Assembly: GCA_025526935.1 (NCBI GenBank)
Contig: JAHLKD010000012.1
Span: 620,001-684,000, forward strand
Length of the DNA: 64,000 bases
Direction: 5' to 3'
From: Cladochytrium replicatum
Taxonomy: Eukaryota > Chytridiomycota > Chytridiomycetes > Cladochytriales > Cladochytriaceae
Below, piece after piece: positions 24,013 to 64,000 of this stretch. The translations under genes were made by a program, and so were the position numbers. Under the pieces are notes generated by a model that was not told the origin of the DNA, did not search any database, and was given only the letters and a program-made list of their open reading frames with translations. Positions within the stretch are counted from its first letter, which is position 1. Every line of letters begins with the position of its first letter.

Positions 24013-25496
24013 TCAAACCCTGGTGGTGCTATGGGTCGATGATGCGGAAGGCATCTCCTCGGCTCGAGAGAGCTCGGCAAGATCGACACCTTCAGAGTTT
24101 GGATCCAGGCGATCATTCGATGAAGCCGATGAATCACTGGACCTCCTTGCAATCATTGGGGCCGTCGATTGGTGAGAAAGTGACGGATCGGTAGCCGTGA
24201 TCACACCGACTGAAAGATTGCTTCTTCTCCCCAACTGGATGCTTGTCGCGTTCGTGCTCGTAGATCGTCGCGGAATCACTCTCCGATCCTGCAGCTCGAT
24301 GTCCTCCATATTCAGCGAGAAGTACGATCTTGATCGCACGGGTGGCGGTGATGGCAGTGTGTACGTTGGCGGGGCCAGCCTGAACTCGGCCGGCGGCTGG
24401 TCTTTCAAAATGTCTTCGTATACGTAGGGCTGGTAGATCGGCAGTCCCTCGCTGAGTATCACTCCGCCACGGGATTCACTTTCGGGTGAAGTGGGTGTTC
24501 CGAAACGGAGCTGTGCCTCGACGACGTACTCGCGCGTCTGGAACCAGACGGGGTTGAACCTCTTCTGACTCGATGTCCGAATGTACTCCTCACGCCTTGC
24601 GACTTCTTCCATGTCTTCGCTCCACGACCGACGGAGAGTCCACACAACCGCGAAACGCTGGCTGTCGAACGCGTTGAAAGTCTCCACAATCTCTTTAACG
24701 GCAACTTCGAAGCTGAGAACCCGCGCGCGGTTGCGGAAGATGCTGGACAGGGATAGCACGTCCACGACAAACATGACAAAAAGGTAGAAAGAGGGCGACT
24801 GGAGGAGGTACCGGATCTGTGAGCCGATATTGTTGGGCGTCGGAGACGGGCTTTGGAATGGAAGGCTGAACATGACAAGAGCGAGGATGGTCGCGGAGCA
24901 GAAGCAGAAGTAGCCTATTACGTGGACAAGGCCGGGGCCGAAATTCATTGTTGGCAGTGCACCTGAAAGCCTTTGGAAGCGTTCATTGTAGTAGTGCTGT
25001 GATAAGCGTTGGGAAAGAAGCGTCGGGTTGGGAGTGGGGATGGGAGGTGGATGCCGTTCCCGAGTGGGACGGGTTGTACCGGTCGAGATGGTCAATTGTG
25101 GACTCGAGGCTGAAGCAGTTGTTGCGCTTGTTGTGGTAGCTCTGCCGGATGACGCAGCCGCACCGGGGCTGCTGTTGACTGTGCTGTTGACTACTTCGAC
25201 TTCGACCCACTTCTTGACCACCTTTGTGGTGTAGGCAGGAATGCGATAATAGAAACGCACTACAGGGACAGCCATCCCTGATTCGAGTGCAGAAAGCGCA
25301 TTCCTGCTGGTCGTCAACCGAGTGCGCTCATCAGTTGGAGGTTGTGGGCGATCCACAGCCGGCGTCACCGCCGATGCACTTGCGGGTACGGGGTCAAGCG
25401 GACCTGGGTACGAATGCAAAGAGTCAGATAACAATTACACTCCAATTATCATGAGTTACCCGCCAGGTTCAGCGTTTGGCCCAGGTGTGCCGACAT
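24013..25496 (-). CDS. unrecognised two-helix membrane protein
   Basis: Not recognised. The start at 25496 (MSAHLGQTLNLAG) was chosen because its exon splices in phase, over GTAACTC...TACCCAG, to GPLDPVPASASAVTP; the long exon then runs uninterrupted to 24013. Layout: a Ser/Thr/Pro-rich N-terminus of about 160 aa, a hydrophobic helix IGYFCFCSATILALVMF, a short loop, a second helix FYLFVMFVVDVLSLSSIF, then FEVAVKEIVETFNAFDSQRF and a long Ser-rich tail with acidic and Pro motifs. Both ends probably face the same side. The conserved-looking core is the two helices plus the block after them. No signal peptide. About 480 aa. Confidence 0.7.
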
Positions 25497-25589: not shown

Positions 25590-28162
25590 TCAAGCATTCC
25601 GCAATGGTGCTGCCCGCCCGTGCCGATACATCGAAGTACCCAAAGCACGTATAACCACCCCTTTGAATGTCTCAAACTCATGCGGATTTATTATCGCAAG
25701 ACTTTCTCCAACGTAGCGTTTGATAGTCACCCGGAACAAATCTGACACTGGTCCAACCGCATCCCAAGGAAACACTCCGGGCACCTGCTCCATCACGGGT
25801 TCCTACAGCAGAAGTTGCGGTGAGATGTTTTTACGATTGGGAAATGTCACTTGATCGCATGCACCTTTGTGGGATCTGGAAATGTGTAGCCCGAAGCTTG
25901 CATCTCCAGTATTTGGCCGAGACTCTCCAGCACTGCTTTACTGAATTGTTCAAACTCTTCGGTTGACCTCAGTGCCAGTCCGCGGGGCACGTACAGCTCG
26001 AGAGACCGACGGAATGCGTCTTGGATCATCGACATGCTGTAGTAAGGCATCGGCTGTCCGACCTTCCTGTCGACCTGTTTCATTCATATCAGTAAACGAA
26101 AAAAAGCTTCATGAGCTGTCGCCCTTACAGATCCTGACTGCGATCTTGCCGGCCGCACAGGGCTGTTGAACTGGTGGTACATCAACGTCGTCACAGACGG
26201 TATACTTTTTAAGGATAGTAACGGGCTATTGACGGTGGAAACGGCCGCCGTTGATGGGAGAGAAACAGTTTTTGGCGTAGATTGCCTCCATGTACCCTGG
26301 ATGTCCGCTTGAGTTTGCATCGAAGAACTTGCGGAAGCGTATTGATGATCAACGTCAGTCCGCGACGAATCCACCGAATCGAAACCAGCGTTGGAAAAGG
26401 AGTTTCGATGGTCAGATCCCGCCTGCGTTGCTTTTCCTGCACTTGTTCCTGGTGAAATGGAGCTCCCATTTGAAGAAGGCTTCTCCAACTGTGTCGACTC
26501 TTCACACTCCAAGTCATTGATATCATCGGGGCCGTGGGTGAATTTCGGATTGAGGCGAGGTGATACCGTTCCAAGTCCTCCATCAGATCCATATTCAAAG
26601 ATCTTTCCAACTTTGGCATGCTCTTGCATCACACCTAGCATTGTACGCGGATGGGCGGCACTGTTTTTTTGCTGAAGCTGTTGCTGTCGCCTTGCGCTCA
26701 ATGTGTCCGCACCTGCTTGTTCTGGTGTGTGTCTCGACAGAATTTTCGGCACTCTTCCTTTATCCATTGCTCTGATTGCTGCACGTTCCTGATCTGCTTC
26801 TTCTGATTCGTTGCGTGGCCTCAAATCCTCTTCCTCAGAATGGTTGGTCACTGGGGAAGTGCTATCCCTGCAAAAAACGTCGTTGCGTTCCGTGCAGCAT
26901 CTTTCGGCTCCCCAAGTTGGAGTTGGAAGTGATTCAGCATCGACTTGGCTGTTTGACGGCACACGTTGTGCTTCACCCGACCGTGTTGAGGAGTCTGTTC
27001 CAGAGACATCAACGAATGTACTTCGACTTTGGAGGCTGTTTCGAACTTTCGGAGAGGGGGATTTCGGACCCAGAAGTCCAGCCGATCTTCTGGGAACTCT
27101 CTTGGTCTTGTAATTGCTGGTTAATGTTTGCTGGACTTCACTTTCCTCAAGCGTCCCTCCAACCGTTGTTCTGTCGATCTCTGTGCAGTTTTCGCCATTC
27201 CCATTATCACCGCTCGCCTCCGATGCAGTTTCCACTCCACCGTTTCTGTCCGAACCGTCAGAGCCGAGAGTTGTGAATCGATCCATGAATTCCTTCACAA
27301 GTTGATCTTTCACACTTTCCACTGACCGGCTCATCATGACCTTTCTGAGGTTTAAAACTTTCTCTGCGTCAGGTTCGGTGGGCCGAGATTCCCAATCCAT
27401 ATCGACTATCTCCCTCATTTCCCGAACACGTTCCGCGGTCATTCCTCTCAAATTGCCCTTCTGCTGTGCAAGATTCAGCGCGATTCGTGCACGCTCCGAG
27501 GGGTACGGGTTGTTCTGCTCCTTGAGTGCATAGAGCGCAATCTCTTCCGAAATGCACAATACATCGATGGTGAAAGTGTCGATCCAATCCACATAAAGCG
27601 AGCATTTTTGAATCAGAGATTTGGGGATCTCAAAATCCACTTGTACCGGGAAAGTAAATACGGATGGTGGGCGGCCGGCAACGAATGAATGAGATAGGTC
27701 ATCGTAGTCCAATATGTTGGGGTAGGATTCAGCGGCAAGGGCCCATCTCCTGTCATCCAGGTAGCAGGGACCGTTGTCGATATTTTTTGCGAGATTTGAA
27801 CCAAGTCGAGATTTCTTTGCACTTTCGCTGTTGACGCGAGGTCTGCCACGCTTTCGCTTGTTGCCGGAGGCGATCTCGAACGAATCACCACCACATGCAT
27901 CAGACTTTTCCAGGTTATCAAGCAACTCGCTCTTCCATTTCTCGGTGAGGAAAGCAAAGCAGTTCCCGCGCAGGGGGTGTTTGGTGTCTCCACGGTAGCT
28001 TTTGTGCGGTAAGAAGAGCTTGGTTACTGTGCTGCGTTGGGAGCCTTTCGATGACGGCGAGTAGATTGCAGAGAGTGGAAGGACACACTCGATTTTGACA
28101 GAACTGGATTTTCTGTCATATGGCACAACGTTCACGGCAGCCCGGGCAGCAACAGCGGCCAT
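25590..28162 (-). CDS. unrecognised AT-hook protein with duplicated C-terminal module
   Basis: Not recognised. The start ATG at 28162 (MAAVAARAAVNVVPYDRKSS) is the first in the long exon. Near residue 105 is an AT-hook, NKRKRGRPRVNS, which binds the minor groove of AT-rich DNA in other proteins, so a nuclear role is likely. A structured block follows (EIPKSLIQKCSLYVDWIDTF, PYPSERARIALNLAQQKGNL), then about 350 disordered Ser/Thr-rich residues. Two further exons, joined through introns at about 26125-26080 and 25860-25810, encode a repeated module: DAFRRSLELYVPRGLALRS..EFEQFSKAVLESLG and DLFRVTIKRYVGESLAIIN..EFETFKGVVIRALG. About 800 aa. Lies 93 bp upstream of the membrane-protein gene on the same strand. 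Confidence 0.7.
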
Positions 28163-29078
28163 CCAGACTGCATGCAACAAAAAAAAATAACAGAAACCAG
28201 TTTGACTTTATCAACCCAAAAAATAGACAAAAAATTACGCTATTTTCAATGTGGACGGAAATCGGAGAACACCTCCAAGAAAGTACGACTATCAGGCCGT
28301 GGCGATCGCAGTACAATACATGAATGTTGGTCGAATGTTCATTGCTCTCGTTTATGCCGCGGTAGTCTGATCAATGAAGCTTGCGGTCGGGTAATAATAC
28401 TCTGAACTGTTCTGTAAACGAACGAGAGGCTTCCGCTCAGCATCAAACCGGAATCCATAAATGGTCACACAAGAGGTAACGATGCTTGCACACTCCACCA
28501 CCGTTCACACGACCACATAAGGGACAGGCCAGAAGGCCATTTGAAGAGTCGGTTTTGGCAGCGCAAAGATTATTAATAATTTTTGTGATCCAGATATATG
28601 GTTCTCTTGTAGGGTTAGTTACATTGACTCTACTTCCTCAGCCGAGATCCTTCTTAATCTGTCCTACGTAAGCCTACCACACTGATCCTATTGCTGCCAC
28701 AGCGAAGAGCCTATGCTCACGCAATCTCCAATTTCTCGAATCTGATAAATTTGTCGCCCTACAGCCCTACAGTATGCGCCACCCCCTGGGATGATGGGCA
28801 ACCTGAAGTTTGTGCCGGGCCTTGATTGTGTGTGTCGAGTCGATGTGCCAGAGCGTTGGCAGAGCACCTCCAGAAATGGCTTCCTGTGACCAATTATAGA
28901 TCTCCCGCATGCTCGATGTGCTGGTCATCCCCTATTCGTTCATTTGGAGAACAAGGTTTCTTTATCAGAAGGTTTCCAAAAAATTTTCGAGCCGTTGATC
29001 TGTAATTTATTTATCAGTGTTCGTTTATAAGACCGGCTTGCTCTTTAGATTGTCCCCCATCCCAAACCTCATCTGAGC
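28163..29078. other. intergenic, divergent promoter region
   Basis: 916 bp between the AT-hook gene and the first fungalysin. No open frame, RNA gene or repeat that I can support. The right end carries the fungalysin A promoter, described separately. Confidence 0.6.
29022..29078 (+). promoter_or_regulatory. fungalysin A core promoter and leader
   Basis: A TATA-like word TTTATAAGA (about 29024-29032) lies about 54 bp before the ATG, and CCTCATCTGAGC touches the ATG. Fungalysin B has the same pair (GTTATAAGA about 58 bp upstream, CCTCATCCGAAC at its ATG), so these are likely shared promoter and leader elements kept since duplication. Confidence 0.5.
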
Positions 29079-31234
29079 ATGCGTGCCTCACTCTTTGCCC
29101 TCCTTGCTTTCCTCGCTGCTTCCTCCGCGCACCCCGTTCGTCGCTCCGACGCTGTGCGTCGTGCAGAGATCACAATCCCTGCATTCTTCCAGAATGAGCC
29201 AGCCTTTGAGGTGACGACTAGCATCCTCCCATCTGGAGGCCCTCTGGCTTTCGTTGCTGGGAAGATCGGATTGACTGGAGCGAGCAGCGCTTCTGTCACC
29301 TCCTCATTCACCGACTCCCTCACGGGCATCAACCATGGTACGTTTGCTACAACGTTCTACGCCCACAGGACGAACCGTTCATGTATTTTGCTGAATCTTT
29401 CCTTCGCAGTGCACGCGGTACAGACCGTTTCAGGGATCCCCGTTGCTAACACTGCCGCGAACGTGAATATCAAGGATGGCAAGGTCCTCAGCTACGGCCA
29501 CTCTTTCGTCAAGCTCCCCGCCAAGATCCCATCCACATCACCTACGCTCTCCGCAGTTGATGCGGTCGTTGCGCTCGCGAAGTCTCTCGCCAGCACTGCG
29601 GATGCCTCCCAGCTCACTTTCACCAACGGCGTTGTATCTGGGGCCGGCTTTGCGATTGGTGACATCAAGGCTTCGCTCTCATGGTACGCTCTTCCATCGG
29701 GTGGTATTGAGCTTGCCTGGGGTCTTCAGACCGAGCTTGTCGACTCTTGGCTCGATGCTTACGTGTCGGCTGTGACTGGTCAGCTCTTGGGTGTCGCAGA
29801 TCACACAGCGCACACCGATGTCCCCACCGAGGGAACAGCAACCATTCCGGCACTTCGCACTGCGTACGACGCTCCCGAAGGATATGTTCAGATGCGGAGA
29901 ACGCTCAAGGCTCGAGACTCGGAAGTGGTTTCCGAGAAACCAGCCCAACTCGACCGTCGCCAGGCTGCCACCAACTACACTTACTACGTAGTGCCGTATG
30001 TTATTCTAAAAACGTCTTATATCATCGAATGCTGATAATGATGGATGTGTCCAGGTTGGGAAGCGCAAACCCGCCTGACGGAGGTTTCGTCACGGTGCAG
30101 AACCCAGCGGATCTGCAGTCTTCTCCTCTCGGCTGGCACGATGTCGGCAGTGGCCCAGCTACCACCAGTGTGGGCAACAACGTCAAGGTCGTGTCGAACT
30201 CGGCTGCTAGTTCATCCACCGCCAGCATGCCTATTCTCAGACGGGAAGACTTCAACTTTGTTTACCCGATTGACCTTACCAAGGATCCAAAGGTAACTGA
30301 TTTTGCCTTTCATTTATGTTTTCCTCGGAAATTCTTATCTTCGAATTGTCTCTAGACGTACACCAACGGATCAGCTACCAACTTGTTCTACTCAGTGAAC
30401 ACCATCCACGACATTACTTACAGATACGGCTTCGACGAAGCGTCCGGTAACTTCCAGACCAACAACTTTGGCAAGGGTGGTGCGGCCAATGACGCAGTCC
30501 TTGCGATCACTCAAGATTACACCAGCACCAACAACGCCGGGTTCTCCACTCCCGCCGACGGATCTTCCGGTCAAATGCGCATGTATCCATGGACTCGCAC
30601 AACCCCCAACCGTGATGGTTCCTTGGAGCTTCCTATTGTCTTCCACGAGTTCTGCCACGGTGTTTCCAACCGTCTTACCGGCGGCACTAGGAACGCCAAC
30701 TGCCTGCAGACCACAGAGGCAGGTGGGATGGGCGAGGGATGGTCCGACGTGTGTGGATATACACACCTTATCAAGCCGTCCCTGGACCGAACCGCCAATG
30801 TAGCCGTTGGAGTCTGGGCGTACAACAGTGCCTCTGGTGTTCGCACCTACCCTTACTCCACCAGCACTACCACCAACCCGCTCCAGTACTCGAGCTACTC
30901 TGCCAGTGCTGGAGTGCACTCAATCGGAACCGTCTGGGCTACCATCCTTTACGAGGTGCTCTGGAACTTTGTTGACGCTTACCCGGTTACCCCTCTCGCC
31001 GAGGCGGGTGAGGGTGGAAACGCAAAGTTCTTCCGCTTGGTGATCGCTGGAATGAAGCTTCAGCCTTGCTCGCCTACCTTCATCACGGCCCGTAACGCAA
31101 TCATCCAGGCCGATGTCAACATCTACGGCGGCGCGAACAAGTGCTTGCTGTGGAAAGGTTTCGCCAAGCGTGGTCTTGGATTTACAGCCACCACCACCAA
31201 GACCAACAAATTCGACTTGCCTTCGGACTGCTAA
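29079..31234 (+). CDS. secreted M36 fungalysin metalloprotease, copy A
   Basis: Extracellular zinc protease made as a pre-pro-enzyme. Four exons: 29079-29338, 29411-29998, about 30053-30292 and about 30357-31234. Signal peptide MRASLFALLAFLAASSAHPV, then dibasic VRR. The FTP propeptide shows HAVQTVSGIPVANTAANVNI and KDGKVLSYGHSFVKLP. A second dibasic site (QLDRRQ) lies before the catalytic domain. Active site HEFCHGVSNRLTGG (two His zinc ligands, catalytic Glu), third-ligand motif TEAGGMGEGWSD. The usual fungalysin sequence is HEYTHG; here Phe and Cys replace Tyr and Thr, and the protein ends in Cys (LPSDC). About 650 aa, normal for the family. No frameshift. First of a three-gene tandem array. 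Confidence 0.93.
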
Positions 31235-32018
31235 GTTGGCTCCCCTGTTCTTTCGTTGTGATTGCATTTCTATGACCTCAATCCTTCATGCGCAAAAGCA
31301 TTATCACTTTTGATGAAGTCGTGCCTGTGTAACAGCACGGCTTTCCTTGCCTCGCCAAAGTCAAACCCATATGACATTTCCTTCAATTAACTACCTTGTT
31401 TCTATGAATACATCTGGAGAGGGACCAGATAAATACATATCACATGTAACTTCCAGATATTGCTTTTATCCGACGGAGCCAACCAGTTCCACGGCATTCA
31501 TGTACACATGCTAACTGAGGGGCCTCTAACGGCACAAAGTGCGGAACTTATTTGTGGACAGAGCTCCGTTCCGCATTGGAATTTCCATGAATTTGATCGT
31601 TATGTCATCGTTATTGGTTTTCGGACAGAAATCTTCAATCTATGGCTCACTTTGGAAGGATTCCTTCATCAGCGGCATGTCGCAACACAAATTGGCATTG
31701 CAGCAGACATGACTCGAACAATCAGTTGAGGCCGCTCGACTAGCGCAGACACACTGTTGAACCGAAACTGCCAGAGGCGAATGAGCTTAAGGTGTAGTGC
31801 TGTGAATCATCAAACATTCCCATTGCATTCCATACTTCATCAGAACCGGGACGGAATTCTAACAGAACCCCGATGGCTGGAATTAAAATTTTTTGCTTGT
31901 TGCCATATTGATTCCTGTGATGGAATGATGAAATTTTTAACATATAGGGGAGTGAGATGTTATAAGAAAGCTTCGTCTCGGTCCGACTTCATATCAAACC
32001 TCCTAACCTCATCCGAAC
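31235..32018. other. intergenic between fungalysins A and B
   Basis: 784 bp, rather AT-rich. The open frames inside are short and lack protein-like composition. Nothing else supported except the promoter elements at the right end. Confidence 0.6.
31957..32018 (+). promoter_or_regulatory. fungalysin B core promoter and leader
   Basis: GTTATAAGA at about 31959-31967 and CCTCATCCGAAC directly before the ATG at 32019. Same arrangement as copy A. Copy C has neither in the same places. Confidence 0.5.
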
Positions 32019-34155
32019 ATGCCTGTCGCACTGTTCGCCCTTTTGGCTTTCCTCGCAGCGTCGACTGCTCACCCCGTGCGTCGTGCAACGATCACAATCC
32101 CAGCATTCTTCCAGAATGAGCCGGTGTTCGAGGTGTCTACCAGCGCCCTCCCATCCGGAGGCCCTCTGGCTTTCGTTGCTGGAAAGATCGGCCTGACCGG
32201 AGCGACCAGTGCAGCGCTGTCTTCGTCCTTTAAGGACTCTCTCACAGGGATCGACCACGGTAAGCTTCAACCGATCTTAAGACGCTTCCAGTTTTGATTC
32301 CAATTTATTTCAGTTCACGCTGTTCAGACTATCTCTGGGGTCCCGGTAGCCAACACTGCCGCAAACGTGAACATCAAGGACGGCAAGGTGCTCAGCTATG
32401 GTCACTCTTTCGTCAAGCTTCCGGCCAAGATCCCTTCCACAGCACCTGCGCTGTCTGCGGTGGACGCCGTAGCTGCGCTTGCAAAGTCTCTCGCCACCAC
32501 CGCGGACGTATCACATCTTACTTTCGCGAATGGTGTCGTCTCTGGAGCTGGCTTTGCGATCGGCGACATCAAGGCTTCGCTCAAGTGGTACGCGCTTCCA
32601 TCGGGTGACATTGAGCTCGCCTGGGCTCTCCAGACCGAGCTTGTAGATTCGTGGCTCGATGCCTTTGTGTCTGCTGTGACTGGGAAACTCTTGGGAGTTG
32701 CTGATCACACTTCGCACACCAAGGTCCCGACCGAAGGTGTTGCTACCATCCCGGCTCTGAGGACGGCCTACGATGCGGACCCGAAGTACGTCCAAATGCT
32801 CAGGACTCTCAAGTCGCGCAGCTCTGAGGTAGTTGCTGACGAAACCGTGCAGCTTAACCGCCGCCAGTCGCCAACCAACTTCACTTACTTTGTGGTTCCG
32901 TGAGTATTCGACATATGGGAGTTGGAAATTGTACTAAATAACAGTTCGTTTCGTGCAGACTCGGGAATTCTAACCCTCCCGAGGGTTTTGCAACACTCGT
33001 GAACCCTGCAGACCTCAAGTCGTCCCCACTTGGATGGCACGATGTAGGCAACGGCCCGGTTCCCTCCACTGTGGGAAACAATGTCAGGGTCGTTTCTAAC
33101 ACTGCCGCGCTTGACTCACTCAATTCTGCCAACAACGCCAAAATGCCTGTCCTCAGTCGCTCAGACTTCAAGTTTGTGTACCCGGTCGACCTTACTAAGG
33201 ATCCCAAGGTTTGAAATCTGTTGCTCTACCTGCATTGCTCAAGCCACCATTGTCGCTAACCATAGCTATTCTAAAGACGTACACGAATGCTTCGGCCACA
33301 ACTCTTTTCTATGCCGTCAACACAATCCACGATATCACGTACAAATACGGTTTTGACGAGGTTTCCGGAAACTTCCAGACCAACAACCTCGGAAAGGGGG
33401 GTGCAGCAAACGATGCAGTCTTCGCCATTGCGCAGGATTACTCTGACAGCGACAATGCGGACTTCACAACACCTGCGGATGGAACATTCGGTCGCATGCG
33501 CATGTTCCCGTGGACGCAAAGCACCCCGGGCCGGGACGGGTCTCTGGAGCTTCCGATTATCTTCCACGAGTTCTGCCACGGTGTTTCAAACCGGCTTACT
33601 GGAGGCCCGGCCAACGCGAACTGCTTGCAGACCACCGAGGCCGGTGGGATGGGTGAAGGGTGGTCCGACGTGTGCGGATATACTCACCTGATCAAGCCGA
33701 CCATGAACCGAACCGCTACTGTCGCAGTCGGAACCTGGGCGTTCAACAACCCCAACGGTGTGCGCGCTTTCAAGTACTCCACCAGCACTACCGTTAACCC
33801 GCTCCAGTACTCGAGCTTCTCTGCCAGTGCCGGAGTGCACTCGATCGGCACCGTCTGGGCTACCATCCTTTACGAAGTCCTCTGGAACCTCCTTGACACT
33901 TACCCGTACACCCCTCTGGAGCAAGCAGGTGAAGGTGGAAACGCAAAGTTCTTCCGCTTGGTGCTTGCTGGGATGAAGCTTCAGCCTTGTTCGCCTACCT
34001 TCATCTCGGCTCGTAACGCGATCATCCAGGCCGATGTCAACATCTATGGCGGCGCGAACAAATGCTTGCTGTGGAAAGGTTTTGCTAAGCGTGGACTCGG
34101 GTTTACCGCCACTACCACCAAGACCAACAAGTTTGACTTGCCGTCGGGCTGCTGA
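32019..34155 (+). CDS. secreted M36 fungalysin metalloprotease, copy B
   Basis: Paralogue of copy A with the same four-exon layout and intron positions: after LTGIDH, after FTYFVVP, and after DLTKDPK. Signal peptide MPVALFALLAFLAASTAHPV. Propeptide ISGVPVANTAANVNI, dibasic LNRRQ, active site HEFCHGVSNRLTGG, then TEAGGMGEGWSD. Ends LPSGC. It lacks about six residues after the signal peptide relative to A (VRRATITIP against VRRSDAVRRAEITIP). All catalytic residues are kept, so it should be active. Copies A and B look closer to each other than to C, pointing to the more recent duplication. Confidence 0.93.
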
Positions 34156-45103: not shown

Positions 45104-45999
45104 GGCTGGGCACCAAAATCAATATGAGGATCCAAGTTGAACAGAAGGTAGCGAAGATCAAGTGGAAGCAGAGCAGTCTGGAATTGGAGCAAATGCAGGT
45201 GGCAATACGTAAGCACAGTGGTGATTTGGGCGATCCGAGTTCAGCTCAGCGTTCAATAAGTTACGAGGATCGGCGGGCCTTTGTGTTTGTGAGCTTTTAA
45301 ATTTAAATTTTAATTTAATTTAATTCACAGTCACAAGGGCCAGCGTCACGTGTTGAGAAAATTGGAACATTTGGGCGAGAAATAACTTTGTGGGTGTACG
45401 ATGTACGATGTACAGATCGAGCGGGGCTCACCCCAATTGGCACACATCTCCGACTGTTGCTATTGGTGCTATCACTGGAGGTGGTAAGTTGTGCGTTTGG
45501 GAAAATCCGTCCAAAAGAACATTCTGTCAGATCTACTTCTCGGTGATTCGATCATCACTGATATCACCAGCATGTTCTGGAACTTGCTGTTCTCCGTGAA
45601 CGCGCACTCGGAGCACTCGAACCTCATCTTCGTTAACGAAGGACCCTCTCGCTTTGCCCATGGTTTTAGGTTTTGATATTCTATTGTTCTTGCCATATGC
45701 AAGATGTGTATATATATTTACAAATAAGTGTTAAGCTCGAACTGGAGATATCTTTTCAAGTCCGTATCCATGCCGCCTTTCGCCCGGTCACCGATTTGGT
45801 TTTGAAATTCAAAGGAAGCACCAGCAACGATAGCTCGCTTGAAGGCTCTGTCATAAGCATTTTCAGTTTTTTGTGGGGCCATCATAACATTTATTTGAAA
45901 AATAGAGAGAAATACAAGAAATTTTCTTCTGCATAAACTTGTGCTTCGATTGGAAATCGAGAAAGTTTCATGGAAAATTACATTCAAAGTCCCTGTGGC
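45104..45999. other. intergenic, AT-rich, possible gene remnants
   Basis: Contains a low-complexity AT block at about 45297-45324 (TTTAAATT-type palindromic runs). On the minus strand a short open segment, NAYDRAFKRAIVAGASFEFQ then NQIGDRAKGG, and near 45662-45537 MGKARGSFVNEDEVRVLRVR look protein-like but have no supported start, splice or family. Treated as unassigned. Confidence 0.4.
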
Positions 46000-48900
46000 C
46001 TACTTGATTCGGCGGCGAGATGTAGCTGCCGCAGAAAACAGTTCTGCCCCCTGTTAATATATTTTGCTATCGCTTGCAAACTTTGATACTCACCATCTGC
46101 GTCTCCTGATTTGCGCTTCCGTGAAGCCCTCGTGTTCCCCAGTGCTGACGCTGCAATCACACTCGCAAGTCTCTTCTGCTTCGCGATTTGAATCCTTCCT
46201 TTCTCATCCTTCCATGCTCGCTTGTGCCCGTCTCGCCCCATCGCGGCCTTCACAGGTCCCACGAGCGTCGCGTTGAATCGCCTCAGTGCGTTCTGGGCTT
46301 GCGCATGAATACTCGACACGTGTCGCGATAAGCGGTCTAGAGCTTTGATCGCTGCGTCGCTGTCGTTGGCGTCGCCGCCATTGTTGTGCGGCTTTGGAAG
46401 CTCGACGTGGAAATCCGGCGAGCGGGACGGGAGACGGAGGATGAGTTGGCGGGAGGGAGAAGGGGTAGATGGTGCGGAAGAGGGTGCGCCGGAGAACGGG
46501 TCGCAGATCAACGTAGGAAGCTGCTCTGGTGAGGTTTGGGTCAGGGTTGGGAGCTGCTCGGGGGAAGTTTGGAACGACGGGAGATGCTCGGCTACATCCT
46601 CAGGCGATGTTTGGATCAATGTGACGTCCTGTTCGCGAGGTAAGGACGATTCAGGGGTGTTTTGTGCTTCTAGATCTGTACGATCAACTTCCTCTCTATG
46701 TTCTTGTTGGGAATTTGTAGACTCAACAGCTTGTGCGACCGGTTGATGGAGAATTGTAAAGCTTTCTGGCACGATCTCCACGTTCGCATCCTGTGCGATT
46801 GAAGGAAGCTCCTGCAAAGTTTTGAGATCTGAAAGCTGTTGTTGAGAGTCGACAACGCTGGCTTCCAGCAATTCGATTTGTTCACGATCAACATCGTGTC
46901 CCACAGTTTCAACAACGTCCACAATCCCGCATGCTTGTTTTGATTCTAAATCCATGATTGTATCGGCAGATTCTCCATCCTTGTCTTCCCCTCCTTCGTT
47001 TTTGCTCTCCGAAACCATGGCCATCTGATCGTCAATACCCTTTGCCTCTCCACCGAATCCCCCAAAACCAAAATCGTCAAGATCTGAAATTTCGCTGCAT
47101 TCCGAAATGGGTGCTTCGTCCTCGCTCGACTCTTCGCTTTCGTATCCCTGTCCATTTGAGACCCATGTTCGGGGACAGATGACCTCTGCACCCGAGCGAC
47201 GCTTGAGTTCCACGACGGCTGCCGCGAGCCTGAGGCTTGCCAGCGCATTCTCGGAGAGTCCGCTTGCCTTTCGAATTCTAATAAACTCTGTTGTATGCTT
47301 GAGAGAGTCTTCAAAGCGCAGACGGGGTTCATTTGTCGCGGGAGCCTCCTCGTTGGGAAGATTACGGATGTGGTTTGACATTCGCTCTGTTGGCGCGGGA
47401 GCCTCAGCGTTGGGAAGACTACGGATATGGTTTGACATTTGCTCGCTTCGAGTCTGGGATTTTAACAAAAAAACGATGAAATCAAGATTCAAAGCATTGA
47501 TGATCTGTGTGAAGCTCACCTTGAGAGCTTGGACATCGTTCTGAAACATGCCGACGTACTCGACCAGATCTGACATCTCCTGCTGCATCTTGTACAGCAC
47601 GCGCATGCGCTCCAGTGATGAGGCGTCGTCGGGGAGGTCGGTGAACTCTGCGAGGGCTCTGCTGCCACGGCTACCACGTTTAGGAGTCGCCGTCGTGAAT
47701 GATGTAGCACGTTGTGCACAATTTTGGGCGGGCTTGCCGGTGTCACTTGTACCACCAGAATCGTTTGGAGAGGAACGGACCATGTCTCGAGTCTTGCGCT
47801 TCGAGGCGGTTGCTGAGGCGCGAGGGGCGGGTTTAGTTGGAGAGGGGTTACGGGAGGAACGTGTTTCGATCTTAAACGAAGAGGGAGATTGCGCTCCGGG
47901 GTCGAGATTGGTCGGAGCGGACACGTCCACCTTAAAACTTAGTGTCATTGAAGGTGGGCGGGAGTGGGTCAGAATTGTTACCGAGGGAGGATTCCAACGT
48001 CCACGTTTGTTGGGACTTGCGCTCCTGCTTGCCTTGCGGACAGGCGAGGCTGTTTGATTGGATTCGGCGGTTTCGGCATCCGGTGTGATCTCTTGATCGT
48101 CATTGAGAGGGTCGTGATCGAAACATTGCTCGTCCCCAGCTCTATCGTCCAGGCTTCGATCTGTCCCATTGCTTCCTCGCTTGGGCCTCTGGGAAGAACT
48201 TGGTATCTCCGCAGTGGATTTTCGCTGATGAAATGATCAAAGTAAGAAATCTACCCTGCACACAAGATTGTATACTTTGTATAATTTAAAGATCTCTACC
48301 TTCTTACGGCGCTTCGAGGATCCGGTCTCTCCAGCGTCTGCGTCGATGCTTCGTGCCCTAGAATCACCTTGGTTTTGTTGATGCGATACTGACGCACGGG
48401 CGAAATCGACCGCGGTGCCATAAAGACCTGAGTCGTCAATGTTACCAATGGGGTCCAAAACGATCGGAGAGCCGAGAGAATGCACGCGAGTCGGGTGACG
48501 GGAACGAATGTGCGCAAGGCAATTGGAACGCACGGCAAATCGGAGGGAGCAGCTTGGGAAGGGACACATATAAGGCTTCTCGAGTGTGTGAACACGCATA
48601 TGTTCTGAAGGGAACATGAAAAGTATTTATGAGGTGGGGAGTTCAAAAGGATGGCAGGAAATTACCGATCATTCTTTGCTGCCAGATGAAAGGGTGCTGG
48701 TTGCTGCAGAGGCCCCATTTGCAAACAAATTTCGATACTTCTCGAGAGCTGTTTTGATCACATCACGGTTATACAAAGACACAAGAAAGTTGTCACCATA
48801 TTTGCTTACGATGACTTCCAAGGAATGCTTAAGACATGGACAAAGTTGACATGGCTGATAAAGTCGCCAAAGCTGGCGAAAAGAGCGGAGCAATCGTCCC

Positions 48901-50164: not shown

Positions 50165-53100
50165 ATGGGGTGAGTAGAAACGGGATAGAACACAGCTTTG
50201 GGTTGGAGGAGGGGGCCATGCACCGGCGTATCGGCTGGTGGAGGCGATTGAATACTCCCTCTTTCGTTCTTGTTGAATGTGCTTGCTGACGTTCCACTAT
50301 TTGTGAAGAATCCCCGCCCTATTTCGATGGCTCTCACAAAAGTACCCCAAGGTCACTTCGCCAGTTGCTGAGGAGCACCCCCGTGAAATCAATGGCATGT
50401 ACTACCCTGTCGACATTTCTGCACTCAACCCAAACGGTGTTGAATTTGATAACCTGTACCTGGACATGAATGGCATCATCCATCCCTGTTGTCACCCTGA
50501 TGACAAGGTAAACTGCCTGATGAGCATGTTAAGTTTTTGTTTCGCTTTGGCTGACACTCTTCGTTCTAATAAGCCGGCGCCGCCGACCGAGGACGCGATG
50601 TATGTCGAAATCTTCAAGTACATTGACCGCATCATGGGAATGATACGGCCGAGAAAGATCCTGTACATGGCCATTGGTGAGTGTTTATACAAAAACAATC
50701 TTCGAGTGCCGGTATGACCTCACAATTTACCCAGACGGAGTTGCTCCGCGCGCAAAAATGAACCAGCAGCGTTCGCGACGATTTCGGGCATCTCAAGAAG
50801 CTCAGGAGAAACTTGACGAAGAAGAACGTCTGAGACATGAATGGGAGAAAGGTAATATTATCTTGCCGTAATATTGTATGGACTCCGAACTTAATTTCCC
50901 CTTTTTTATTGTTAATACGTAGAAAATAAACGAATGTTACCAGCGAAAGACACGAAATCTCACTTTGATTCTAACTGCATCACTCCTGGCACTCCTTTCA
51001 TGGATCGATTGGCCACAGCCTTGCGATACTACATCGCCGACAGACAAACAAACGATCCTGCTTGGAAACATGTGAGGGGCAACAATTGTTTTCAAATTTT
51101 TCTTATTAAATCAAATCGTTGCAATAGATCAAAGTAATACTCTCCGATGCCAGTGTTCCTGGCGAAGGAGAACACAAGGTGATGGACTTTATTCGACGGC
51201 AGCGGTCCGCTCCAGCGTACAACCCAGATACTCGCCACGTATTGTACGGTCTTGATGCAGATTTGATCATGTTGGCGTTGGGAACCCACGAGCCCTACTT
51301 CAAAATTCTGAGAGAAGACGTCTTTGCGAAAGAGAAGAGCAATAGCTGCTTTATTTGTGGACAGACCGATCATATTGCTGCCGTTTGTACCGGTAAGATT
51401 TCTGCCCAATGCGATGGATACTCTTTTCTAACTCTCCATAATTTCTACTTTCCTCTGCTCTCTATTTGAACGTGGGTACCTACATCCACCAAGGGAAACC
51501 AAAAGAAAAGGTTGGCGAATTTGACGAAAAGTCGAAGCCAGCGGAGCTCAAGCCCTTCGTATTCTTGCACGTGCATATCCTTAGGGAATACCTCGAGGCA
51601 GAGCTCAAGCTTCAAGACTTGCCTTTTGCCTGGGACCTCGAACGAGCTATAGACGACTGGATCTTCCTTTGCTTCTTTGTCGGAAACGATTTCCTTCCTC
51701 ACTTACCGTCTCTCGAAATCCGCGAAGGTGCTATTGACCGGCTGATTGAGATCTGGAAGCGACTGATGCCCACATCAACGGGGTATATTACCAAAGACGG
51801 AAGCATCGATCTTGAAATCGTGGAGCGACTACTTGAAGAGCTTGGCAGGGCTGAAGATGAGATTTTTGTGGAAAGACGGCAGATTGAGGAAAGGAAACGA
51901 GAAGCGCGGCAAAGAAGAAAGCGCGAGGCGAAGGCAAATAAGGAAGCAAGGGAACGTTTACGTAATGCTGGGGTTCCTTCTTCGGTCGCGATGCAGATGG
52001 CTTTGGAAAACGTCCCAAGCTATTCTGTGAAGATGGGCTCGGAAGAGCGGGCAGAAATCAATAAGGGCTACTTGGACAGGAGGAAGGACATTCGCATGGC
52101 GGGAACGCCAGCAGTGATGAGCAGTTCGCCAAGTAGGTTTGCGTTTTCTGCTCTGGAGGTGGCACGGATGGCGAAGGAGAGCCAAGCGGGTTCAAAAGTT
52201 GGAGAAAACAAGGCGGCAGCGGAGGCACTGAGAAATGCTTTGGGGAAAAAGGGAGGGCCACCGGCAACATTACCAGCAAAGCGATCCGCAGCTGAAGTGG
52301 AAGAAGAGGAGGAGGTTGTCGTGGAAGGAGGCGGTGTAGTTGCGGCAAAGCTATCTGATAGCGCTAACAGCGATACGCCGATGGCGGAGCTCAGTGGAAC
52401 AGTCGTAGAAGAGGCGGCAACATCTGATACACCAATTCCCGATGAACCTGGGGCCGATGAGGCTATAGACGAAGTAGTTGAAGATGATGACGAGGAGGAA
52501 GTGGTTGAAACGATGACGGTGGCCGAGGTGCCGATCCCCGTAATAAAGAAAAAGAAGGAAGATGAGGACAGCGATGCAGAGCCAGACGATAATGTTCGTC
52601 TGTGGGAAAGTGGGTGGAAAGACCGTTACTATCGGAACAAATTCGGTGTAGAGCTTGCGGACGAAGAGTTCCGACGAGAGTGAGATCGTGAGATATTTAT
52701 TTTGGAGATGCTTACTAAAGTTGTTATATGTTAAAGAGTCGTGAAGAAGTATGTCGAAGGCTTCTGCTGGGTTTTGAAGTATTACTACCAAGGCGTTCAA
52801 TCATGGAAGTGGTATTACCCGTATCACTACTCTCCTTTCGCCTCCGACTTTGTTGGCATCCGAAACTTGAAGATCGACTTTGAGCTTGGGCAACCTTTCA
52901 AACCCGTTGAGCAACTCATGGGCGTATTCCCAGCTGCATCTCGCCAACATATTCCGCCGGCTTTTCACAAGCTCATGACTTCCACCGAGTCCGAAATCAT
53001 CGACTTCTACCCCGAGCGAATTCAGATTGACATGAATGGCAAGAAGCACGTGTGGCAAGGGGTTGCCTTATTGCCGTTCATTGATGAGAAGAGGCTTCTT

Positions 53101-56975: not shown

Positions 56976-59444
56976 ATGGCCCCCTCTCTGCACCCTCTCG
57001 AACTTATTACTGAAGACGAAATCATTCGGGCTGTGGCGATTCTGAAGGAGGAGAAGAACAGTTTCAACTACGCAAATGTCACATTCAGTGAAATCGGTCT
57101 ACAGGAGCCCCCGAAGAAGGACGTTCTTGCATTCACCGGCGAATTCCCACTTGCGAGATGTGTCAGATTCATAATGATCGACAACGACAACATGAAAGTC
57201 TACAAAGCGATTGTCTCCCTGAAAGGATCCAAAGTCATCAGTTGGGATTACCTTCCGAACGTTCAGCCGCTCATTCACTTCGACGAGTTCAAAGCTCTTG
57301 AAGAGAGCGTCAAGAAGCATCCCGACTTTATCGAAGCTATGACGAAGCGCGGCATCGAGGATCTTTCTCTTGTGGTGAGCTGCTCAAAAATGCTTCGGTG
57401 CTTCTTTCTTAAAGGTCAATTTCCATCTCTCCAGTGCATTGAACCCTGGTCAGCAGGATATTACGGTGATGTGGACGAGGAAGGGAAAAGACTCTGCCGT
57501 GGCCTTGTATGTGCGCGCAAATTTCCCGACGACAATTTGTATGCCCACCCGGTCGAAAATGTCCAAGTGATCTTCGACATGGTGAGTATTCGATCCATAC
57601 TAGCTTTCATTTCACTAATGGTCGTTCGGTGCAGAACAAAAACGAAGTCTTCAAGATCAACGACTTCGGCGTGGTCGAGGTTCCACAAGAGTCCCACAAC
57701 TTCGCCGCCGAGTTCATCAAGGAATACCGAAAAGATCTGAAGCCCCTGGAGATCACGCAACCGGAGGGACCGAGCTTTTCGGTGACCGGAAATCTTGTCG
57801 AATGGCAGAAGTGGAGCTTTCGTGTCGGCTTCAACGCTCGGGAGGGTCTTGTTTTCCATCAGGTTCTTCAGTATTATTTCATTACATACTTTTTGTCTCA
57901 TTCCTTCCTTCGCCGTCAGATTGGGTACAAGGACGACAAAGATCCCAGTAGAATTCGCTCTATTCTATACCGGATGTCGATTGCGGAAATGGTCGTGCCT
58001 TATGGGGACCCTCACCCAATCCACTCGAAGAAAAACGCATTCGATTTTGGAGAATATGCTGCTGGAGCTTTCGCCAATTCCCTAGTGTACGCTAATTGCA
58101 CAACAACGGGATCAAAGCTTATTTTCTTCGCCCTCTTTAGCTTAGGTTGCGATTGCAAAGGATACATACACTACTTTGATGCCGTGTGCGCCGATTCCAA
58201 AGGTGTTCCATTTACCATCAAGAACGCTGTCTGCATGCACGAAGAGGATTACGGCATTCTTTGGAAGCACACAGACTTTCGTACGCAAAAATGTGACAGC
58301 CGTCGATCGCGCCGGCTGGTCGTGAGCTTCATCGCAACAGTGGGCAACGTAAGCTCAATTTGTAGACATTTCGATCGTATATTCACATTATATTGTAGTA
58401 CGACTACGGCTTCTTCTGGTACTTTTACCAAGACGGCACAATTCAGCTCGAGGTGAAGCTCACCGGCATCGTGAGCACCGCGCCGTCTGGAGCGGAGACA
58501 CCGGAGTATGGTAGCCTCATTGCTCCAGGTCTTTCGGGCATCATTCATCAACACTTTTTTATTGCACGACTTGACTTTGACATCGATGGGACAACAAACA
58601 AGGTCGGTGAAACATATGTAGACTTTCTCAAGGCTGTTCTAAAGTTTTTCCATAGGTGTTCGAGGTCAACTCCAGCAGTGATAGCGCGGTCAAGCCGTTT
58701 GGCACGCCCGGAAACCTGGTCGGAAATGCGTTCAAGGCAACGGCGACACTTTTGAAAAACGAAACTGACGCTCAACGAACCTGCGACATATACAAAGCCC
58801 GGTACTGGAAAGTCGTATCTTCCGAGAGGAAAAACTTTGTCGGCGAACCTACTGGCTTTAAGATCGCACCCGGGGAGAACGTCCTACCAATGTGGGACCC
58901 GGAAGCGCCAGTAGCGAAACGAGCTCAATTTGCCACGAAACACTTGTGGGTCACCAAATACGAGGAAGATGAGCTTTATGGTGCGGGGGATTTTCCGGTG
59001 AGTGTTGGAGCTTTTGAGCTGCTGTTTGGAGACAGCTGGTTCATTTTGCTTATCTGACTTGTTAATTACTTCACAGAATCAATCGAAGCAAGACACTGGT
59101 GTCGCAGAGTATGCTAAGAAGGCGCGCAATCTTGAAGACGAGGACGTTGTTGTGTGGTACAACTTCGGGTTAGTGTACAAGGAATGATCATATACGGTGT
59201 ACTGATGATCGTACGTTTCAGACATCACCACGTTGTTCGTCCCGAGGACTTTCCGGTCATGCCCGTCGGGTACATTGGTTTCGTTATGAAGCCCGTCGGA
59301 TTCTTTGACGGAAACCCGGCTCTGGACGTCCCGCAGGAAAATTTAGGAAAGTCAAAGTGCACAAAAAGAGATGACAATGGGATTGCGAATGGCAAGGAAA
59401 ATGGGAGCGCAAACGGGACCACAAATTGTCCAGGTTGCTGCTAG
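56976..59444 (+). CDS. copper amine oxidase (primary-amine oxidase)
   Basis: Oxidises primary amines to aldehyde, ammonia and H2O2 using copper and a topaquinone cofactor made from its own Tyr. The cofactor motif [17 protein letters not shown] is present, with the Asn codon and the modified Tyr codon on either side of an intron (about 58350-58398). Catalytic base in [11 protein letters not shown], conserved [15 protein letters not shown], copper ligands in [15 protein letters not shown] and in [15 protein letters not shown]-terminal domain from [16 protein letters not shown]. About ten exons, all splice sites reasonable. No signal peptide and no clear C-terminal SKL; the protein ends Asn/Gly-rich (GTTNCPGCC). 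About 680 aa. All key residues present, so likely active. Confidence 0.9.
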
Positions 59445-59785: not shown

Positions 59786-62700
59786 TCACATTGCGGTCGG
59801 CCTCTGCCTTTGTACATTGCGATGAATAATTGTCACTCGAGAACCGACAGACTCCCGCTCCCATATTTCGTCAGTTCCCACGCCACGATCTCCGACTGAT
59901 GTGGAAGATCGAGGAAGCGAATTGTATGCCTTGGGCAAACCTGTATTCATGCTAGGCATCTCGCGAGCCCCGCTAACACTACCTCCATTTAAACTTTGAT
60001 TTGAGTTTTGAGACCGAACCGACTGCGAGTCAGCCTCGTGAAATCCGAAAGAATCACCGCGGATCGAATCCCGCACGATTGTACCATAAACGGTCCCTTG
60101 CTGAATCGGTCGACGGAAAACCAAATTTCGAGTTGCCTCCTGGGAGGGAATATTGCCAGATTGTGCACGAAGTATCCCGCGAGGAGCAGGAGGCTGGAGA
60201 GCCGATTGAACCGTTGGAGGTTGGGGGCCAGGTGGGGCGACGGATCGGGTTAACAGGTTGGGGAACGACACAGCAGGCTGCTGGTACTGCTGGCCGTATT
60301 GCGCTTGCTGGGCTTGAATAGGGACCCGCGAAATTCGCCTCAGTGCCTTCAAGTTGTTTCCCAGCCAGCCTTCGACATGGTTCATCATCTGCCTTTGTTG
60401 AGACTCCTCCCACACCGTAAACGCACTTATGTCGTCGCTCTTTAGTGCAGTTGATGCCACGTTCGATTGTTGCTGGGCAACTTTCGATGGGTCCGGGGCG
60501 TGCATTCGCGGATCTGATCGGACTGACAGGCCTTCAGGGTACTCTTTAGGAACAATACTCTTCATCTTCTCCAGATCCTTCATGGACTGATAAAGAACTT
60601 GATCAAAGCGAACAGATTGTCGCTGTATGCTGCGCAGGCTACTCACAACACTGGACGATGCCTCTTTAAGCGGTGCTTTGCGTACACCGCCCTCCAGAGC
60701 ATTTTTCCCATTCGCAGCTCGATCCATATACAACATGAATGTTCCGTCGAGAACAACTCGTCTCAACAAACGCCATCTCCCCCTGGCGGGATTGCGTTCG
60801 ATTTCAGGGCGGAAAGCTGTGAGCCTCGAGGATTCAGAAAAGAAAAGCTGGAGTGCGTTCATAGCTCCTTCGAGCCGCTCAAACAAGCTTCGCAACAAGT
60901 TCACGGCGGAATTGTGAACCCCCATGCCAACGCTCTCAATCGGCGCACGGGATGCAGCAACGCCTTTTACATGCTCTCCAAACGCGAAGAGATCCTCGAT
61001 ACCTGCGCAGATTTGAGCCCTGATCGCTTTGAGCAGCTGCATGTCAAGAAGGGTACCCTTCTCGACATACTCAAACACACCCCGTTCGAACAACTGGACA
61101 GAGTGGTCCATGTTGGTGTCAGAGACGAGTTCACCGAGCCTTGCGATCTCCTTACGTGTTCGTGCGGCAGCTGCAGATGACAGGGCTTTGTTAGCCATCC
61201 CAACGATATCCGGAATAAGTGCATCTGTGCCTTGGTCGTCCATTGTAACAAAGCAGAAAGATAGTTTTAAATGAAGATCGTTGAGACGAGTTCCCAGCAA
61301 GCTCGGGAACCCGCGAGTAAGCATTCGGCTCTGTAGTTGATAGAATTTGCGAATACCCGCGACGTTGACCATCCCCGCACCATCTGATTTCCAGAATCGG
61401 GAGTTTTTGTCCAAAAGCGCGTTAAGCTCAAACGATAGAGTCGTGATAGTTTCAACTATGTTGCGTAGGAAGTCTGACCACGCCTCATACACGTCGCACA
61501 TAGATCGGGGCACAGCTCCGCCATGATGGTCTCTTTTAAAGACTCCGGGGGTGCAAGCAAGTCGTCCGACGCGATATTTGGCAAGAAGGCTCATGATCTC
61601 GGGGTTACTTGTGTGAGCTACAGCGTCGAAGGTCAAGGATGCATCTATGCCTGCGGATGCTTGGACAATCAATGAGCCTCCAGGATGGATCGGCAAGAAG
61701 TCAGTGACGTCGTAGCTTAAGAGATAGCTGTTAAAGATCGCGTACACCTACCAACATTGATCCTTTAACTTACCACCAGCCGTGGACTCCAATCCAAGTC
61801 ATAACACCTTCGGCATCGCCAGTGTGAAGTGCAAGTGTCGAGGGGAGGATGATGGGAGCATTGCTTGGTGGAGGAGAGGGAGTCATGAAGATATCGATCT
61901 GGAATCGACGCTCGGCCACCGCCATCGCGATAATTTCATCCGCGGATTCAGTCAAGTAGGTTGCGCGGTGGGCGAGAGCTTGCCGAAGTCCGCGCATTAC
62001 TGACTCATAGAGCGGAACCGATCCGCACACATACAGGAAGGCACCGCTGCCACCAAGGCGAACAGGCATAATCGCCGCGCAGATGGAAGCTGCTTCCTGC
62101 TCAATAACCTCGTCAATATACTGTGGTTCTTTCTCGACTTCCACAATGCGACGCTGCTTTCTGTCGAATCTAAGGCCAATCTTGTCTCGAGAGAAGGCGG
62201 TGAATAGTTCGAGTTGACCATTCTTAACATAATCGAACAGCTCAGACCCGTATAAAAGCTTCTGACGAGTTTGTACGCCGAAGAACAAAAGGTTACGTCC
62301 AGTCGCCCCAGAGTGGACACGCTCTTGAAGGAATCCACGGAAAGGAGCGATCCCTGATCCACCTGCAAACATCACTATCGTGGCGGCCGGCGATGTTGGC
62401 AATGAAAAATGAAGCGGTCGAGATACACCAATGAATACCTAGCGAGAAGTATTTGTAATTTGAATTAATTCCAAAATCAGTTGCCCATCTGACCTCTTCG
62501 GCATCATCAGCAATCACCATCGGATTGCCTTCCAATCCTTCAAGCGTAGGGTGAGGGTTCAAAAAACCACTGGATACTCCCCAGCGAGTGTTCAAAAGCC
62601 CGATGTTTTCGCCATTGAATGCCAGCGAACGGACAAGCGGGTGATTGACACGCGAAACTGTCAAATCAATATAGCTAGGCAAAGCATCATCCATTCCCGA

Positions 62701-64000
62701 GCAGGATATACTGTACATTCGGGGAACTTCAGGCGGGACAATGTCCAGCAACCATCGCAATCCAGTTCCAGCGAAGGTGGTCGGAAAAGTGTTCGCAACT
62801 ACGGTGGGGGTGAGCTCCTCGCTTATCGAAGCAAACAAGTCCCCGAGGTGGGCATCAATTTCTTCTGCCCCGGATTTGAGAAGGTATGTTACGTATGCAG
62901 ACTTCCCATTTAGACGAGCGTTCACCTTGTGGAACAGAAACGCATAAGAATCATCGAAATGCTGACATATTTCCGTATCTCACCGCCTCTATAACGGGTC
63001 GAGAGAGCGGTTGCAGCCGCCCTCGGCGCAGGATCTCCCGGATTGTGAGCCGGGCTCGACTTGGATCTCGAGTAATCTCTCCCACGTATGCACCAAACCG
63101 TTTCCAAACCGATCCATACTTCGACATCGACTCCTTGTCGAATTCGAGAGGCACAAATGCATCAAGTGCGTCATACAGCCCAGGGATTGCTTCGATTAGG
63201 GTCTCGATCGTTGACCACTGGTTAAGTGGCATGATAGAAAGTCGGTCTCCAGGGGCAAAGGTTATACCTGTGTCCCGAACATCAATCGAGATCATCCGTG
63301 TCGTTAGTTCAGGATCTTCGTCGATTCGGGTGCGCATAGCTATTCTACCGATGAACCGGCACTCTTCGAAAGAGCCGCGCATTTCATGAGGCTGCACGAG
63401 ACCAGCTGCTCCAACAGTGGATGGTGAAACCACTCCCTGGTGTCGTTGCTTTGTGCGATTTTTCGTTGTTACAGCAACGTTCAAACGCGGACGGTATGGT
63501 TCAAGTCGTTCCACCAGGGAGTCAGAAAGAGTCTTATGCACTTCTTCCCATGGACGTCCAGTACTGTCCGACGCTCCTGCATTTCCATTGGTTTCGAGAC
63601 GACCGCTTTGGAGAATACGCCAATTAGCTGCGGAAGGAAAAATGTACAGTACACCAGTTACGTCTTTGCCACTACTTCGATAAATCCATAAACTTTGTCT
63701 GTACAATAAAACCTCAGCACGATTGAAACAACAGCATTAGACAGGTGTACATACATCGGTGGGTTCCCATGAAACCCCGTTCTCCGGCATAGCTTTCAAC
63801 AATGCCTTCCAGAACCCCCAGTAGCGTAGGATCGCCTGTCTTCCGAACGTACTCAGGAACAGAGTAGTATGTCTCAATCGCGGCAATGAACGCTCGAACG
63901 TTCAGGGGAAGCCAAGCTCGTAGGTGCATGGCTTCTCGGCCTAGGAACGACAAATATTTTGTGCGCCCAAGGAAGGCATCCATAGTCTACGCATGTTCTA
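59786..64000 (-). CDS. IDO-like dioxygenase / P450-reductase-type / cytochrome b5 fusion (5' end beyond window)
   Basis: Read leftwards; the N-terminus is off the right edge. (1) About 63990-63480: C-terminal core of an indoleamine 2,3-dioxygenase-like heme domain: LRAWLPLNVRAFIAAIETYY, SVPEYVRKTGD, GFMGTHRYKVYGFIEVV (His = expected proximal heme ligand), GRPWEEVHKTLSD. (2) About 63380-61850: P450-reductase-type module: FAPGDRLSIMPLN, PRMYSISCS and YIDLTVSRV (FAD), FAGGSGIAPFRGFLQER, FLYVCGSVPLYESVMRG, ERRFQIDIF (NAD(P)H). No flavodoxin domain precedes it in the visible part. (3) About 61835-61550: cytochrome b5: TWIGVHGWCYDVTDFLPIHP then GGS, with the second heme His in AVAHTSNPEIMSLLAKYRVG. 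A 58-nt intron (61716-61773) lies inside this domain. (4) About 570 unknown residues to PTAM. Exon about 63611-62951 spans the first junction and exon 62402-61774 the second. Confidence 0.75.

Follow-up and report, generated by a model that had tools for sequence, protein, structure and literature searches.

An indoleamine 2,3-dioxygenase fold joined to a reductase module and cytochrome b5 in fungi: a probable self-sufficient haem oxygenase

P450 BM3 (CYP102) and the fungal CYP505 proteins combine, in a single chain with their own reductase, a Cys-ligated P450 domain and a flavin mononucleotide (FMN) domain. In Ncb5or and nitrate reductase, cytochrome b5 is fused to an NAD(P)H-flavin adenine dinucleotide (FAD) module of the b5-reductase type, and flavohaemoglobin holds haem, FAD and NAD in one chain. 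Here we describe a gene of the chytrid Cladochytrium replicatum (genome, 50.5 Mb), on the minus strand of a window of 64,000 nt (the whole stretch of DNA analyzed; contig C12, positions 620001–684000), whose product is one chain composed of an indoleamine 2,3-dioxygenase (IDO) fold, a FAD-NADPH module of the cytochrome P450 reductase (CPR)/CysJ type that lacks an FMN half, then cytochrome b5 and a helical domain at the C terminus. Like P450 BM3 and CYP505, this fusion protein is a single chain with its own reductase, and its FAD/NADPH module is of the same type, but an IDO domain and cytochrome b5 stand where those enzymes have P450 and FMN domains. The combination of b5 with an NAD(P)H-FAD module is shared with Ncb5or and nitrate reductase, which lack the IDO domain.

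IDO1 and IDO2, together with the fungal IDO alpha, beta and gamma proteins, resemble the fusion protein in the whole fold, the family profile and, probably, the proximal His. The fusion protein differs from them in lacking the tryptophan-binding residues and the GTGG[ST] loop, in showing ~20% identity in structural alignment, and in having the reductase and b5 attached. The His-ligated haem-dependent aromatic oxygenases MarE, PrnB, TyrH and SfmD belong, according to PMC12312684 and PMC11791213, to the same superfamily as IDO. As described there, enzymes of the MarE/PrnB group take reductants or oxidants from outside, whereas the fusion protein has an internal electron chain, a distinction drawn from descriptions only.

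Domain organization of the fusion protein

The final Pfam scan, made on the refined spliced protein with reporting to E up to 1, found IDO (PF01231, 42.7 bits against a curated cut-off of 26), NAD_binding_1 (42.2 bits) and Cyt-b5 (41.1 bits, cut-off 23.7) in a single chain, with FAD_binding_1 at 29.0 bits, below its cut-off of 32.3. No NOS (nitric-oxide synthase) oxygenase, globin or P450 family was found on the spliced protein at this threshold. The FAD/NADPH module gave PDB profile matches to sulfite reductase flavoprotein (SiR-FP), CPR and NOS reductase, and Foldseek matched the FAD module to the P450 BM3 FAD domain and SiR-FP; the fusion protein shares its FAD and NADPH parts with these reductases, but no flavodoxin/FMN family was found on its spliced chain at E up to 1. 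In the predicted structure the IDO fold is present across the whole domain. Single-exon Pfam scans returned no IDO match and a per-exon PF01231 search of the genome did not return the fusion locus, which we attribute to splicing effects. Thus, the joining of IDO, P450-reductase-type FAD/NAD(P)H and b5 domains in one protein, which an earlier note had proposed from the window alone, is real in the spliced gene, its Pfam matches and its fold matches. A BAR assignment was considered for the C-terminal helical domain; the BAR-like matches were weak and within noise, and the domain is therefore left without assignment.

The gene model, extended with adjoining contig sequence beyond the right window end, has 13 exons encoding 1698 residues, with the ATG 1.57 kb past that end, and 12 introns of 50–81 nt, all GT-AG. 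The window contains seven of the exons (63986 to 59786, read on the minus strand like all features of the gene given below). The other six, exons 1–6 (window-equivalent 64037–65570, residues 1–420), encode the bulk of the IDO domain and the segment N-terminal to it, and an intron occupies the window edge (63987–64000). The public prediction, BJ742DRAFT_880965 (P0001), is identical to residues 104–1698 of the model, and the extended N terminus is backed by an RGCAF motif common to homologues. An earlier model of 1744 residues retained two introns, and on it PF01231 scored 31.6 bits, compared with 42.7 bits on the refined protein.

Exon 7 (63755–63986, residues 421–497) belongs to the IDO domain and contains H496 (codon 63761–63759), the probable proximal haem ligand. 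Exon 8 (63662–63698, residues 498–509) prolongs the haem-ligand segment and retains the frame of the homologues, THRYKVYGFLEVVAKTGR, and exon 9 (63473–63605, residues 510–554) contributes a TGRxETNG-type loop and the C-terminal part of the IDO domain (GRPWEEVH). The IDO and FAD parts are separated by an in-frame, stop-free intron of 81 nt (63392–63472, GTAACA...GTGCAG), a segment with no counterpart in P0001 or the aligned homologues. Exons 10 and 11 (63391–62984 and 62925–62494, residues 555–834) encode the CPR/CysJ-type FAD-binding part, and exon 12 (61774–62438, residues 835–1055) the NADPH-binding domain (Pfam, residues 857–981, ~62372–61998). Exon 12 runs unbroken from the NADPH domain into the first nine b5 residues (61802–61774). 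Of the two domain junctions that the earlier note had placed inside uninterrupted exons, the NAD/b5 junction therefore lies within an exon as stated and the IDO/FAD junction does not. The b5 domain (61556–61802, residues 1047–1109) is interrupted by an intron (61773–61716) and carries the axial His residues H1066 (61687–61685) and H1090 (61615–61613). Exon 13 (61715–59786) encodes the conserved C-terminal helical bundle (60743–61510), which has no Pfam family, and ends in a tail with the stop codon (59786–60190), predicted with a local-distance confidence (pLDDT) of ~30–35 and little conserved in the alignment.

Homologues, redox residues and the substrate site

A homologue search, with the 1744-residue model or part of it as query, scored 7999 candidates, of which 285 proteins had E up to 1e-3. 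The homologue counts given here cover the 120 listed of these 285, and residue counts refer to the refined model plus P0002–P0120. All four Pfam domains are present in 115 of the 120 and PF01231 in every one. Those with an organism name are all fungal, and a minority come from metagenome sources. They include the chytrids Cladochytrium and Gaertneriomyces (P0008), Basidiomycota such as Rhizoctonia, Serendipita and Marasmius, and many Ascomycota, and the domain order, being common in public fungal protein sets, is thus no chytrid oddity. In a midpoint-rooted FastTree of 120 sequences the two chytrids fall together within a 24-member clade (support 1.0), together with the basidiomycete sequences and a few others; support for the group formed by the remaining 96 is weak (0.348). 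In three of the listed strains there are two members, which differ by an indel of a single residue (gap in 69 of 120, Gly in 51), and the C. replicatum genome shows one copy of the fusion gene. A search of GTDB contigs with two peptide patterns, a limited test, matched 63 stretches and gave no prokaryotic relative. Searches with the IDO domain only had apparent pieces or partial models of the fusion family among the matches listed (120 of 203 in one search), and distant stand-alone IDO-domain relatives may exist. The fungal NOS-like genes NOL2/NOL3, NCU05185 and NCU05006 were considered as characterised members and set aside, as their place in the family could not be established.

Across the 120 sequences the redox residues examined hardly vary. 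Residue numbers and roles follow IDO1 and CPR, and the GTGG[ST] loop is discussed in PMC12312684. The Arg, Tyr and Ser of the RxYS motif (R759, Y761 and S762) are each present in 119 sequences, with one gap each, and the spacing from the His to RxYS is 220–279 residues in 110/120 sequences having both motifs. The CPR positions C630, D675 and R597 (C972, D1016 and R892 here) are kept in all 120, the CPR W677 position is Phe throughout (F1018 here), and of the b5 axial ligands the HPGG-motif His is present in 118 (two gaps) and the second in 120. Ahead of an RGC[ASN][FW] motif, which was found in the first 140 residues of 72 sequences (the other 48 were left out), two N-terminal Cys-Pro dipeptides occur in 57, one in 9 and none in 6, compared with a shuffle mean of 0.19. 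The C. replicatum protein has one. These motifs resemble haem-regulatory motifs.

Sequence comparison indicates that H496 is probably the proximal haem His, the counterpart of IDO1 H346. The position is His in 119/120, and in register with the ordinary IDO encoded on contig C5 of the same genome the His-on-His alignment scores best (9.5; next, −8.9). Weighing against this assignment, the HMMER alignment sets human IDO1 H346 three residues before H496; in ungapped comparison with the human IDO1 segment the minus-3 register is best (2.7) and His-on-His fourth (−12.0); and H441 and H533 are likewise invariant. Because the residue at the minus-3 register is Met, Phe or Leu, we assume an indel of three residues immediately ahead of the His. 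Judged by its end points (model residue 474 to IDO1 400), the structural match would set the ligand at about residue 420 of P0047. This agrees with H422 of that protein (equivalent to H496) and not with its invariant His residues 367 and 459 (equivalent to H441 and H533), but does not separate H496 from the residue three before.

The substrate site departs from that of IDO1. By HMMER alignment and column counts, the F226-F227-R231 stretch is replaced by a segment of the NPxSGENFxxPxEW type, the GTGG[ST] loop occurs in 0/120, and a TGRxETNG-type loop is found in 117. The Y126 position is mostly Phe (69) or Gln (47) and the C129 position mostly Gln (69) or Val (45), whereas S263 remains Ser, A264 becomes Gly and D274 remains Asp in 120/120 each. 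The ordinary IDO gene on C5 has FYHRTRP, SAGQS, KHIQIV and GTGGT, and more IDO exons lie on contig C8 of the same genome. Action on tryptophan, which the earlier note had suggested as a possibility, is not supported by the sequence, given the lost residues and loop and the separate IDO genes, and the substrate is probably other than free L-tryptophan held as in IDO1. IDO-like stretches also occur on two other contigs, C13 (44913–45254, 42.1 bits) and C36 (296825–297166, 41.8 bits), each with one internal TAG, and are possibly copies of another IDO-like gene.

Electron supply and rival explanations

We put the probability at about 0.66 that the protein is an IDO-superfamily haem oxygenase, His-ligated and self-sufficient, with electrons passing from NADPH through FAD and b5 to the IDO haem. 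The single chain, its folds, the conserved redox residues and the wide conservation on which this reading is built are observed. They lend good support to the earlier suggestion of an enzyme with its own electron chain. As FAD and NADPH sites are present, with no FMN domain and b5 instead, the route from NADPH to FAD, b5 and IDO haem would be the simplest. NADPH would reduce the CPR/CysJ-type FAD domain without an FMN partner, and the fused b5 would replace FMN in carrying single electrons to the IDO-type haem; this haem would bind O2 and oxygenate an aromatic, probably indole-like substrate. The built-in supply could either keep the haem ferrous or give electrons at each turnover for monooxygenation.

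PMC4191572 cites b5 as an IDO reductant. According to PMC12921851 (JACS 2026), human IDO requires a reducing agent for monooxygenation and forms N-formylkynurenine without electrons after the first reduction, and in PMC12312684 ascorbate favours monooxygenation by MarE, for which the SLGGR/GTGGS loop is important. Since reductant diverts related enzymes toward monooxygenation, a monooxygenase is possible, and with the built-in donor and the missing canonical loop a self-sufficient monooxygenase has to be taken seriously, by inference. Several points weigh against the preferred reading as a whole. The position of S596, which in CPR would contact the NADPH 2'-phosphate, is Thr in this protein (Ser 109, Asn 8, Thr 3 of 120). 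According to PMC11791213, no product was seen in vitro when PrnB, near IDO in the superfamily, was supplied with b5 or P450 reductase, so that reductant alone is no guarantee. Moreover, because IDO dioxygenation needs initial reduction only, the fusion alone is no pointer to monooxygenation. We regard as tentative, and on balance doubtful, the fuller proposal of a fungus-wide class of self-sufficient IDO-fold monooxygenases. In these, NADPH electrons passing through FAD and the fused b5 at every turnover would convert the His-ligated IDO haem from a dioxygenase to a P450-like monooxygenase; the substrate would not be free tryptophan, and the Cys-Pro motifs would perhaps link the enzyme to haem status.

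A tryptophan or simple-indoleamine 2,3-dioxygenase of the kynurenine pathway, whose reductase would only prime and re-reduce ferric haem, would account for the IDO fold and family match, for the precedent of b5 as IDO reductant and for the Ser, Gly and Asp at the S263, A264 and D274 positions. We nevertheless consider it unlikely, given the replacement of F226, F227 and R231, the loss of GTGG[ST] and the separate IDO genes; because the C5 IDO has FYHRTRP and GTGGT, it probably already serves the kynurenine pathway. Very unlikely is a nitric-oxide dioxygenase or similar detoxifier of diatomic gases, in which IDO haem would replace the globin of flavohaemoglobin. The single-chain layout of haem, FAD and NAD parallels that protein, and P0005 and P0066 are labelled 'related to nitric-oxide synthase', but the reductase module, which matches NOS reductase, could explain the label by itself. 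According to PMC4948021, NO did not differ dramatically in N. crassa knockouts of NOS-like genes, which counts little, as family membership is not established.

Less probable still is an IDO domain acting as haem sensor or regulator, with the FAD-b5 chain serving other proteins. The presence of at least one N-terminal Cys-Pro in 66 of the 72 assessable sequences would fit it; the invariance of Ser, Gly and Asp at the S263, A264 and D274 positions fits catalysis, although it is compatible with sensing. The chance that the protein is a gene-prediction chimera of neighbouring genes is negligible. Its first junction has an intron, but the second lies within an exon, the GT-AG-spliced frame is continuous, and the same domains recur in the 115 homologues. 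The earlier note had likewise argued that these were not two merged genes. The self-sufficient haem oxygenase is the reading we prefer.

Neighbouring genes and meaning of the family

Tail-to-tail with the fusion gene, ~350 bp away, lies a copper amine oxidase gene on the plus strand (57470–~59444; PF01179 in 57470–58456, later exons by eye). Also on the plus strand are two open frames of fungalysin peptidase type, possibly of one gene (29049–34155, with the propeptide motif at 29049–30035 and the M36 catalytic domain at 33199–34155), and an exoribonuclease-type gene whose open frame encodes an Xrn1 helical domain (51442–52683). On the minus strand, open frames of 473, 707 and 750 residues (24013–25434, 26084–28207 and 45984–48236) matched no Pfam family at E up to 1e-3.

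What is new is the combination of a known fold with known reductase parts, for which no description was found in open-licence literature; subscription work on fungal IDOs (Yuasa, Ball) might hold one. The earlier statement that no enzyme with this order is described thus stands as far as the search of open-licence literature reaches, but not in the sense of an oddity. Database names of the members are mostly hypothetical protein, sulfite reductase flavoprotein or NADPH--hemoprotein reductase, and P0042, P0108 and P0111 are annotated as indoleamine 2,3-dioxygenase. As the family is widespread in fungi and often labelled sulfite or hemoprotein reductase, relabelling would touch many genomes. A natural single-chain enzyme with its own donors would allow a direct test of how IDO-type enzymes obtain electrons in cells and of whether electron supply sets mono- versus dioxygenation, as P450 BM3 did for P450s.
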